Under the pieces are notes generated by a model. That model was not told the origin of the DNA. It ran no database searches and saw nothing but the letters and a program-made list of their open reading frames with translations. This document shows positions 2,036 to 25,446 of a DNA stretch of 64,000 nucleotides, one piece after another; position 1 is the stretch's first letter, and every line of letters begins with the position of its first letter. Both the position numbers and the translations under genes were made by a program. The DNA comes from Terriglobales bacterium (GTDB lineage: Bacteria; Acidobacteriota; Terriglobia; Terriglobales; Acidobacteriaceae): contig DATMAB010000012.1 in the NCBI GenBank assembly GCA_035573675.1, positions 1 to 64,000 of the forward strand, written 5' to 3'.

Positions 2036-3046
2036 ATGGCAATCAAAGTCGGCATCAACGGATTCGGCCGCATCGGGCGCAACATTTTCCGCACCGCCAT
2101 CGGCGACAAAGACCTGGAGTTCGTGGCCGTCAACGACCTCACCGACCCCAGGACGCTGGCCCACCTGCTGAAGTACGACTCCATCCTGGGCAATCTGCCC
2201 AACGACGTGAAGGCGGGGCAGGACTGCGTGGTGGTGGATGGCCGCAGCACGCGCGTGTTCGCCGAGAAAGACCCGGCCAAGGTGCCGTGGGAGCAGGTCG
2301 GGGCGCAGATCGTGGTCGAATCCACGGGGCGCTTCACCAACGCCGATGACGCCAAAAAGCACCTGCGCGGCCCGGTGAAGAAGGTCATCATCTCGGCGCC
2401 CGCCAAGAACGAAGACATCACCGTAGTGCTGGGCGTGAACGAGACCGCCTACGATCCGGCCAGGCACCACATCATCTCCAACGCTTCCTGCACCACGAAT
2501 TGCCTGGCGCCCATCGCCAAGGTGGTGCACGACAACTTCACCATCGTCAGCGGGACCATGACCACCATCCACTCCTACACCAACGACCAGGTGATTCTCG
2601 ACTTCCCGCACAAAGACCTGCGGCGGGCGCGGGCGGCGGCGCTCTCCATGATCCCGACTTCGACCGGCGCGGCCAAGGCGCTGCACCTGGTGATTCCCGC
2701 GCTCAAAGGGAAACTCGACGGCTTCGCCATGCGCGTGCCGACGCCCAACGTGAGCGTCGTCGACCTGGTGGCGTTCGTCGAGAAGAAGACCACCGCGGAA
2801 GAAGTGAACGCGGCGATGAAGAAAGCGTCCGAGGCCGGGCCGCTCAAGGGCTACCTGGGCTACGAGGAGGCCGAACTGGTCTCCATGGACTACCGCGGCG
2901 ACGAGCGCTCCTCCATCGTGGACGCCGCCATGACCCGCGTGGTCGCCGGCAACTGCGTCAAGGTCATCTCCTGGTACGACAACGAGTGGGGCTATTCGTG
3001 CCGGGTGAGAGACCTCATTCACTACTTGGCGGGAAAGGGATTGTAA
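2036..3046 (+). CDS. gapA: Type I glyceraldehyde-3-phosphate dehydrogenase
   Basis: Converts glyceraldehyde-3-phosphate, NAD+ and phosphate to 1,3-bisphosphoglycerate in glycolysis (cytoplasm). The 336-residue length is normal. The Rossmann motif INGFGRIGR is at residues 7-15, and N33-D34 after the second strand suggests NAD preference. The catalytic cysteine is C152 in SNASCTTNC. The C-terminal WYDNEWGYS is canonical. The ATG at 2036 was chosen because CGGAGG sits just upstream and translation begins MAIKVGING; an in-frame ATG at 2006 would add ten unlikely residues. It heads a cluster with pgk and tpiA, interrupted by a four-helix-bundle gene. Confidence 0.97.
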
Positions 3047-3049
3047 AGA

Positions 3050-3085
3050 AGCAATCAGCAATCAGCAGTCAGCATTCAGTCAATG
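3050..3085. repeat. Heptameric repeat array
   Basis: AGCAATC, AGCAATC, AGCAGTC, AGCATTC, AGTCAAT follow directly after the gapA stop codon. The array borders the inserted four-helix-bundle gene on its left. Confidence 0.8.
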
Positions 3086-3101
3086 CGTCTACGAGGTCAA
3101 C

Positions 3102-3461
3102 GTGAAGGACTTTCATGACCTGAAGGTCTGGGAGAAGTCGCATGCGTTTGCCCTTGAAGCCTACTCACTCACAGCAGCATTTCCCGTCGACGAACGCTTC
3201 GGTTTGACCGCGCAGATCCGCCGCGCTGCCTCGTCCATACCTGCGAACATTGCCGAAGGCTGCGGGCGAAGTGGAAACGGTGAGTTCTCACGGTTCCTCT
3301 ATATAGCCATGGGCTCCGCGTGCGAGTTGGAATATCATCTGCTGCTTGCAAGGGACCTGAAACTCATCGACCCGGAAGAATACAAGCGAGGTGTGGCTCG
3401 AGTTCTTGAAGTCAAGCGCATGCTCGCTGCCTTGATCTCTAAAGTGAACTCTGAGCGATAG
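3102..3461 (+). CDS. Four-helix-bundle protein (23S rRNA IVP / bAvd-like)
   Basis: A 119-residue helical protein of the family first found in intervening sequences of 23S rRNA genes and related to the Avd protein of diversity-generating retroelements. The family signature is clear: FHDLKVWEKSHAF at the N-terminus, FGLTAQIRRAASSIPANIAEG in the middle (R, S, P, N, E conserved), and a Y-x-x-L-region helix. The start is GTG at 3102 with GAGG six bases before it. It sits alone between gapA and pgk, flanked by heptameric arrays on both sides, with no rRNA or reverse transcriptase nearby. Its biochemical role when free-standing is not known. Confidence 0.85.
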   Translation: MKDFHDLKVWEKSHAFALEAYSLTAAFPVDERFGLTAQIRRAASSIPANIAEGCGRSGNGEFSRFLYIAMGSACELEYHLLLARDLKLIDPEEYKRGVARVLEVKRMLAALISKVNSER

Positions 3462-3480
3462 TTGCGCTGTGCATGGGTGC

Positions 3481-3549
3481 ACTGCTGAGTGCTGACCGCT
3501 GAATGCTTCGGTTTGGCTGAATGCTGATTGCTGAATGCTGAGTGCTAAC
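3481..3549. repeat. Heptameric repeat array
   Basis: Units such as ACTGCTG, AGTGCTG, ACCGCTG, AATGCTG and ATTGCTG repeat with period 7 up to a few bases before the pgk start. They are the complement of the AGCATTC-type units left of the four-helix gene, so that gene is bracketed by oppositely oriented arrays. Confidence 0.8.
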
Positions 3550-3557
3550 AGATAGAG

Positions 3558-4766
3558 ATGCCCAAACTTTCAATCAGAGACTTACCGCTGCAAGGCAAGA
3601 GAGTTTTTACCCGCGTCGACTTCAACGTCCCGCTCTCCGACGACGGCAAGGTCGCCGATGACACCCGCATCCGCGAGACCCTGCCCACCATTGACTATGC
3701 GCTGCGCCATGGGGCGCGGCTGGTGCTGGCTTCGCACCTCGGCCGTCCCAAGGGCAAGCCCAACCCAAAGATGAGCCTGAAGCCGGCGGCTGAGCGTCTG
3801 GCCGAGCTCGACCAGGAGCAGATGTACGCCGCGCACGTGGGTTTTGCGCCGGATTGTGTGGGCGCGGACGTCGAGGCCCTGGTTGCGAAGCTCAAGCCCG
3901 GTGAAGCGCTGGTACTCGAGAACCTGCGCTTCCATCCCGAAGAAGAAGCGAACGACGAGAATTTTTCGCGCGCGCTGGCCCGCCTGGCGGATTTCTATGT
4001 CAACGACGCCTTCGGCACCGCGCATCGCGCGCACGCTTCGACGGTCGGCATCACGAAGTTCGTCGAGAAATCCGCGGCCGGATTCCTGATGGAAAAAGAG
4101 CTGCAATACCTGGGCCGGGCGCTGGAGAGTCCCGAGCATCCGTTCGTCGCCATCCTGGGCGGCGCCAAGGTGTCGGACAAGATCGAGGTCATCCGCAACC
4201 TCATCCCCAAGGTGGACGCGCTGCTCATCGGCGGCGGCATGGCCTATACCTTCCTGAAAGCCTCGGGAATCAAGGTCGGCAAGTCGCTGGTCGAGGAAGA
4301 CAAGCTGGTGCTGGCGCGCAACCTCCTGGCGGAAGCTAACGAGCAGGGCGTGAAGTTCATGCTGCCCGTCGATCACGTCATCGCGGAAAAGATTGACGCA
4401 GCGGCGACGACCTCGGTGGTAGGCGAGAGTGGCATTCCCGACGAAAAGATGGGCCTCGATATCGGGCCGGAAACCGTGAGCGCGTTCGTGGCCGAGATCG
4501 CCAAGGCCAAGACCATAGTGTGGAACGGACCCATGGGCGTGTTCGAGGTCGCACCCTTCGCCGCCGGCACCATGGCCGTGGCCCAGGCCGTGGCCGCCAA
4601 CCGCGGCGCAGTTTCCATCGTGGGCGGCGGAGACTCGGTGGCCGCGGTCAAGGCCGCCGGCGTCGCCAACCACATTACGCATATCTCTACCGGCGGCGGC
4701 GCGTCGCTCGAGTTCCTGGAGGGCAAGAAACTGCCCGGCGTAGAGGCGCTGACGGACAAGAAATAA
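3558..4766 (+). CDS. pgk: Phosphoglycerate kinase
   Basis: Transfers the acyl phosphate of 1,3-bisphosphoglycerate to ADP, giving ATP and 3-phosphoglycerate. The length of 402 residues is standard. Visible signatures are RVDFNVPL near residue 20 (substrate binding), SHLGRPKG near 60, GGAKVSDKI near 200 (hinge region), WNGPMGVFE near 320 and GGGDSVAA near 355 (nucleotide binding). It lies between gapA and tpiA, separated from both by heptameric arrays, which gives gaps of about 100 bases. Whether the three are cotranscribed is not obvious; the spacers contain no terminator that I can see. Confidence 0.97.
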
Positions 4767-4767
4767 G

Positions 4768-4885
4768 GCTCTAGGCTTTTGGCTTTTGGCTTTTGGCTTT
4801 TGGGTGTGGGCTTCTCGCTTACTGCTTACTGCTTATTGCTTATCGCTTGTTACTGAATGCTGATTGCTGACTGCTGAGTGCTGCC
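4768..4885. repeat. Long heptameric repeat array
   Basis: The whole pgk-tpiA spacer is made of 7-base units. GCTTTTG repeats first, then GCTTACT, GCTTATT and GCTTATC, then GCTGATT, GCTGACT and GCTGAGT. The gradual change of unit sequence along a fixed period is striking and is the best example in the window. Confidence 0.85.
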
Positions 4886-19887: not shown

Positions 19888-19911
19888 GGCGGCGATTGTA
19901 ACAAGCCGTCC

Positions 19912-19937
19912 GCAGTCAGCAATCAGCATTCAGCAAG
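19912..19937. repeat. Heptameric repeat array
   Basis: AGTCAGC, AATCAGC, ATTCAGC units lie just upstream of the M20 gene start. They decide against the longer N-terminus for that gene. A CCACAAAGGACACGAAGG-type tract follows at about 19945-19970. Confidence 0.65.
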
Positions 19938-20523: not shown

Positions 20524-20590
20524 CAGCTACTAGCTGCTGGCTTCTAGCTACTGGCTCCTAGCTCTTGGCTCTTGGCTTTTGGCTCTTAGA
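20524..20590. repeat. Heptameric repeat array
   Basis: AGCTACT, AGCTGCT, GGCTTCT, AGCTACT, GGCTCCT, AGCTCTT, GGCTCTT, GGCTTTT, GGCTCTT: nine or more 7-base units directly after the ssb stop codon, each keeping GCT at a fixed place. Confidence 0.85.
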
Positions 20591-25321: not shown

Positions 25322-25328
25322 GACCCAT

Positions 25329-25400
25329 CAGTTTACAGTTGCCAGTTGCCAGTTGTCAGTTCAGCACATCAGTTCTCGGTTCTCAGTTCTCAGTTCTCGG
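25329..25400. repeat. Heptameric repeat array
   Basis: AGTTGCC, AGTTGCC, AGTTGTC, AGTTCAG, then AGTTCTC, GGTTCTC, AGTTCTC, AGTTCTC. It lies immediately upstream of the SRP RNA gene (minus strand) and before the transglutaminase-like gene (plus strand), so it may cover the SRP promoter region. Confidence 0.85.
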
Positions 25401-25446
25401 AGAAGACCTTCCTTTTGTGCGACGAGTGGAGAACAATAGAGGCCAC

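Follow-up and report, generated by a model that had tools for sequence, protein, structure and literature searches.

Proteins of the 23S rRNA intervening-sequence protein (IVP) family, also called S23, are widespread and their structures have been solved; we know of no function established for them. In REPIN/RAYT systems, inverted repeats dispersed between genes form hairpins, the gene of a resident protein is flanked by the same repeats, and gene-free copies outnumber the genes. Bacterial 23S rRNA intervening sequences (IVSs) are excised from the RNA by RNase III, and the IVS of Coxiella has the heptamer GACAGAT in tandem where RNase III cuts at its 5' end (PMC4990558). IVP open reading frames (ORFs) also occur in rRNA insertions of the Candidate Phyla Radiation (PMC11270868). 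Tandem heptamers located between genes have been reported in the SPADE survey (PMC6344855) and as the TAACTGA repeats of Beggiatoaceae (PMC4679880); the terms 'four helix', 'intervening' and 'S23' appear nowhere in these two main texts. Here, an IVP gene located between gapA and pgk was analysed in a stretch of 64,000 nucleotides from a Terriglobales bacterium (contig DATMAB010000012.1), hereafter the window. This gene, together with the heptamer arrays that bracket it in opposite orientation, is probably one copy of a family of mobile elements of about 0.5 kb, each consisting of an array of 7- or 8-mers, an IVP gene and the array inverted. We favour reading the arrays as cognate ends that belong to the element itself.

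The genome that holds the window is denoted G000 and its sister species G001; L numbers denote IVP loci, the element in the window being L005. Like the 23S rRNA IVS, this element has terminal inverted repeats, here predicted to pair into a stem, and the loop encodes a protein of the same family. Unlike the IVS, it lies between two protein genes and not in an rRNA gene, and it is accompanied by further copies (11 in the genome, of several types), by matched arrays as arms and by gene-free derivatives. As in REPIN/RAYT systems, dispersed hairpins are linked to a resident gene flanked by the same repeats, and the element resembles a mixture of the IVS and the REPIN/RAYT plans; in contrast to those systems, the IVP protein is not a Y1 transposase and the ends are tandem 7- or 8-mer arrays whose type varies by locus. 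The Avd protein of diversity-generating retroelements (DGRs) has the same fold, whereas the window protein falls under the cut-off of the Avd models and G000 has no match to RVT_1. With the heptamers of the SPADE survey and of Beggiatoaceae, the arrays share their period and intergenic placement.

Profile searches placed the window protein in the IVP family. The ORF matched PF05635 with an E value of 2.8e-38 and about 130 bits (130.4-130.8) against a curated cut-off of 33.8, and TIGR02436 with an E value of 1.8e-37. A Pfam search up to an E value of 0.1 returned PF05635 and bAvd only, and the Avd models matched weakly, under their cut-off (23.4 bits versus 80 for DivGenRetAVD). The AlphaFold2 model consisted of four helices (pLDDT 96.8); its best fold matches were 2gsc (Xanthomonas XCC0516; TM score 0.94), 2rld (BT_0352; about 0.8) and then Avd (4dwl; 0.77). 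The structure entries 2gsc and 2rld carry titles of the 'hypothetical' or 'unknown function' kind.

A sequence-only reading of the DNA had described an IVP-family gene that splits the gapA-pgk cluster between opposed 7-mer arrays, and this arrangement was confirmed. The left array reads AGCAATCAGCAATCAGCAGTCAGCATTCAG, and TGCTGAWTGCTGAWT with up to three mismatches was matched 20 times in the window, compared to 3.1 ± 1.6 times in shuffles. Pairing of arms was scored by comparing the upstream flank with the reverse complement of the downstream flank; the paired portions at this locus, 34 letters each, score 26, which equals 30 matches if ungapped. In the predicted RNA fold the arms form a terminal stem around the IVP gene (minimum free energy -201.3 kcal/mol, z -4.7), and 0 of 100 shuffles were equally stable.

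Comparison of orthologous sites pointed to mobility. Thirty gapA loci were read, 25 of which had a pgk motif downstream, and the gap contained an IVP match in only two of these 25, both in genomes of this genus. Three others of the 25 had unrelated ORFs in the gap, and no IVP gene was found there in the other genera read. The two occupied gaps hold different elements, L005 in G000 and L042 in G001, with IVP profile scores of about 130 and 53.7 bits and, by eye, arrays of 7-mers and 8-mers, respectively. The gene is thus not fixed between gapA and pgk, and the proposal that it was inserted and that its bracket is meaningful was borne out. At the L011 site of G001 the element was missing and the flanks were joined, and at the L004 site only 15 bases separated the aligned flanks. 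The L001 site had an IVP gene in both species, in opposite orientation, in DNA that could not be aligned and with AGTTCTC versus AGTACC arrays. Inspection by eye of the L006 site revealed an IVP element in G000, short solo arrays in G001 and G002, and a gene-free TCAGC hairpin in G004. Copies can also persist: L002 and L009 align throughout with their G001 loci, and G001 likewise has an IVP gene at the L007 site, although the DNA there did not align. The pattern by which a mobile element is recognised, presence or absence at orthologous sites with intact flanks, was therefore found at two empty sites (L011 and L004) and two replaced ones (L001 and L005), and from this comparative genomics we infer that the family is mobile.

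The profile search yielded 11 PF05635 matches in G000. When the flanks were read directly, arrays stood on either side of the genes, of a single type per locus and of types that differ among loci, for example GCGATAA/TTATCGC (L006), GTGGTTA/TAACCAC (L002) and GGTAATTT/AAATTACC (L011). When the strongest period from 6 to 10 near each gene was determined by script, it was equal on the two sides in all 11 loci (7 in nine loci, 8 in two). The other IVP genes of the genome share the kind of flank with the window gene, but not its heptamer. Complementarity of the flanks reached 18 at 11/11 loci, compared to 6.3% of 1,500 random segments of 330 nt from G000, with the reservation that the score of at least 18 at L001 arose from a coding stretch, the arrays by themselves pairing at 16. 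At least three of these IVP genes appear damaged (an internal stop in L001, partial profile matches in L008 and L011), which would fit a selfish element. Just 5' of the IVP gene of L007 (G000:C13, about 1300-1490) lies a GCTCTCC-type array with a short inverse, in tandem duplicate. Elsewhere, IVP matches were clustered by two or three within about 1 to 6 kb at L099 (G008:C13), L091 (G022:C37) and L081 (G039:C14), and three were listed on each of the contigs G072:C223 and G098:C7.

The arms matched their own partners across genomes. The PF05635 family was present in 30 of 41 genomes (G000 and 40 relatives), in which 90 matches were listed; 83 were taken into arm scoring and two (L030 and L083) were removed for too short a flank, leaving 81 loci. 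Their own-pair mean was 23.6, whereas permuted partners gave 12.65 ± 0.46 (largest 15.8), and 0 of 10,000 permutations reached the own mean; the score was at least 18 in 70 of the 81. The result was consistent in a second set, which comprised 27 loci of further genomes in the phylum (23 of the 27 belong to families other than that of the window): the mean was 28.4 versus 12.9 ± 0.95 with permuted partners (0/10,000), and 25 of 27 scored at least 18. Among named relatives of the window protein (the best 80 of 394, found in genome contigs, 75 of them with both flanks), the own-pair median of 17 was barely above mismatched pairs (mean 14.6, 95% at 24), because many of these loci have one array type in common; these scores consequently support conservation of type and not matching of pairs. 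In two young-looking elements, L145 and L106, the arms were identical over 41/42 and 32/32 letters, variable letters and unit order included, and by eye the right end of L004 repeats, inverted, five host bases from beyond its left arm. These are hints of foldback copying and not proof of it. When arms were tested for being in-register copies, variable letters were equal in 56/104 cases in the own register and in 181/584 in other registers, a comparison that is biased since the register was chosen by alignment and that was likewise treated as a hint.

The type of array followed the protein. The named relatives, again the best 80 of 394, span Acidobacteria, Planctomycetes, Nitrospirae, Chloroflexi, several Proteobacteria, cyanobacteria, Actinobacteria and others; taken together with gene order, they suggest that G000 belongs to the Acidobacteriota. 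Three TCAGCNN units, with one mismatch allowed, were present in the expected direction upstream in 46 of 75 loci and, as the inverse, downstream in 28; five resampled versions of each flank contained no three-unit TCAGC array. Arms of the TCAGC type were found in 28/39 kept named relatives of the window protein compared to 1/67 other kept loci. Protein identity and array similarity were correlated in a Mantel test on pairs from different genomes (r = 0.48), as well as on pairs joining Acidobacteriota to other phyla (r = 0.49), in each case above 500/500 permutations; the test used 107 of 156 two-flank loci, namely those with an own-pair score of at least 16 and periodic arms, and left out 49. 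Such a correlation is the outcome expected if cognate ends travel with the protein.

Arrays of this kind were also found apart from IVP genes. Twenty stretches of G000 (400 kb), set by hand at round coordinates and not random, contained no PF05635 match and had 40 period-7 and 4 period-8 arrays, compared to 1 and 0 in one Markov resampling; periods 9 to 11 gave one array altogether, period 6 gave 8, and period 5 gave 2 versus 9 in the resampling. At ten gene-free places, inverted arms enclosed a short loop to form a hairpin, and these loops (nine from G000 and one from G004; 12 to 121 nt) had no shared sequence by eye. At a cosine above 0.5, 45% of the 44 control arrays matched arms of resident IVP loci, compared to 2% of column-shuffled arrays; with the arms of relatives added, the figures were 84% and 13%. 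The resident arms came from 10 of the 11 G000 loci, L001 being omitted because its best alignment lay in coding sequence.

In the samples taken, the occurrence of these arrays depended on the gene. No period-7 or period-8 array was present in ten 20-kb stretches (200 kb) from nine IVP-free genomes of the same family, which had three arrays of other periods, whereas ten stretches (200 kb) from IVP-bearing relatives had 14, spread over six of the ten; the two samples are not fully independent, since six of the nine IVP-free genomes share one genus. In a draw of 149 genomes of the phylum, four-unit TCAGC arrays occurred in 24, and an IVP match was present in 19 of these compared to 56 of the 125 others (Fisher p = 0.003). 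Without G089, G153 and G162, in which the reversed control pattern matched oftener than the TCAGC pattern, the proportions were 16/21 and 56/125 (p = 0.009); G125 and G158 match the control pattern once. All of the listed opposite-strand TCAGC pairs within 500 bases, at least nine, face one way by eye, and the pair in G158:C5 brackets an IVP gene that was found in a separate search.

Further IVP-free arrays of the window lie at 1855-1894, 19905-19936, 20547-20590 and 25327-25402, in the last of which two different array types adjoin. Between pgk and tpiA the unit types pass from GGCTTTT to TGCTTAT to TGCTGAT in one register, and NGCTNNN fits 15 of the 17 units; array types may evolve into one another, or may be laid down in phase.

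Several observations weigh against a mobile element with cognate ends. The profile searches gave no match of the window protein to a nuclease, transposase or polymerase family, and inspection of the empty L011 site by eye revealed no target-site duplication. Eleven of the 81 loci scored below 18, and L024 (G031:C31), whose long GCGCAGA arrays have one orientation on both flanks, departs most clearly from the inverted plan. Among the 75 named loci, three-unit TCAGC arrays stood on both sides in only 22, upstream only in 24, downstream only in 6 and on neither side in 23, and wrong-way arrays were present upstream in 10 loci and downstream in 6. Seven of the 44 control arrays had an inverted look-alike (score 15-19) at a distance of 450-1,500 nt, with other genes in between, so such a bracket is not by itself specific to IVP genes. 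Four of the ten stretches from IVP-bearing relatives had no array, and five of the 24 genomes with TCAGC arrays (G103, G114, G170, G082 and G185) had no PF05635 match; their arrays may have outlasted a lost gene, or the absence may reflect assembly gaps.

Three other explanations were considered. The arms may have been kept as an RNA stem cut by RNase III, which would uncouple the IVP gene from the host operon, any spread being incidental through ordinary horizontal transfer and recombination. The predicted fold, in which the arms close the whole gene, is in agreement with this, as is the 23S rRNA IVS, which has the same plan: RNase III cuts its terminal stem of 28 bp, and tandem heptamers lie at the 5' end (PMC4990558). 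We consider this explanation unlikely, since it accounts neither for gene-free hairpins and solo arrays of matching types, nor for different insertions in opposite orientations at one site, nor for an array type that tracks the protein across phyla.

Mobilisation in trans by a known enzyme, either a Y1/RAYT-type transposase or a reverse transcriptase, would make the IVP protein an accessory, as Avd is for DGRs. The Avd fold would suit such a role, and Y1 transposases were present in 33 of the 41 genomes searched, with seven in G000. The searched enzymes were RVT_1 and Y1_Tnp only. RVT_1 had no match in G000, G001, G002 and G008, which have 11, 6, 7 and 9 IVP matches, and Y1_Tnp had none in G025 (four IVP matches) or in G020, G031 and G034 (one each), which leaves this explanation very unlikely.

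The least probable of the three, in our judgement, is that the arrays are primary, made by slippage or another process, with IVP genes as cargo that recombination trapped between two of them. Arrays do far outnumber IVP genes, as the 44 in 400 kb of IVP-free sequence illustrate, some have inverted look-alikes across other genes, and the gap between pgk and tpiA contains 17 heptamers, of three types, in a single register. Chance pairing, on the other hand, predicts arms of mixed type, whereas own pairs exceeded permuted ones in both sets; moreover, the sampled IVP-free relatives lacked arrays and array type tracks the protein across phyla.

The sequence-only reading had offered two options, a footprint of insertion or arrays as the places where such genes land. 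The second does not fit the opposed arms, which tend to be of each gene's own type, because a gene that landed in an existing array would have both halves of it running the same way, as seen in L024 alone. Arms that are a single fixed terminal repeat, as in insertion sequences, were ruled out, since types differ within one genome. Neither a reverse transcriptase nor a Y1 transposase is obligatory, neither being a constant companion as far as PF00078 and PF01797 show. L226, a candidate 23S rRNA insertion on the basis of one short motif, was rejected when Rfam found no rRNA there. Overall, the interpretation given in that earlier reading was partly supported.

If the feature is a mobile element with cognate ends, its small, four-helix protein of the Avd fold would recognise the hairpin that its own array units form, either in RNA or in single-stranded DNA, and would drive or protect the spread of that hairpin. 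Each arm would arise as an inverted copy of the other, and later decay would spare the core of the unit; mini-hairpins and solo arrays would be gene-free derivatives, and the element would seed intergenic heptamer arrays. In transcripts of the host operon the stem would enclose the IVP gene and could be excised by RNase III, by analogy with the 23S rRNA IVS. More tentatively, the element may spread with neither transposase nor reverse transcriptase, its Avd-fold protein recognising its own 7- or 8-mer hairpin and carrying the cognate array across phyla, and may be the source of much of the intergenic heptamer DNA of prokaryotes. The results point to an undescribed family of IVP elements and a possible source of common 7-letter repeats; no description of IVP genes linked to inverted heptamer arrays outside rRNA was found among the papers listed in searches of the open-access PubMed Central literature, which does not cover most subscription journals or bioRxiv.

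The features of the locus are listed in Table 1. Just 5' of gapA (775-1843), a PD-(D/E)XK endonuclease-like ORF (PF11645) adjoins an AbiV-like HEPN ORF (PF18728); the two are possibly a defence pair.

Table 1. Coordinates of the IVP element and its neighbours in the window.
Feature	Position	Strand	Remark
gapA	2036..3046	+	host gene, upstream of element
Left arm, heptamer array of TCAGCNN type (also AGCAATC-type), about four units	3050..3083	+	pairs with 3513-3546
IVP gene (23S_rRNA_IVP / TIGR02436), four-helix bundle, 119 aa, GTG start	3102..3461	+	
Right arm, inverse heptamer array, two blocks separated by CTTCGGTT	3480..3549	-	paired portion 3513-3546
Entire element, arm - IVP gene - inverted arm	3050..3546	.	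predicted stem enclosing gene
pgk	3558..4766	+	host gene, downstream of element
IVP-free array between pgk and tpiA, 17 consecutive heptamers	4767..4885	.	one register

The element joins two open questions, the function of the IVP/S23 protein and the role of tandem heptamers. If the proposed reading is true, a family of selfish elements without a recognisable recombinase would need explaining; the IVP/S23 protein would be the gene product of a mobile element, and tandem heptamer repeats would be its ends and remains.
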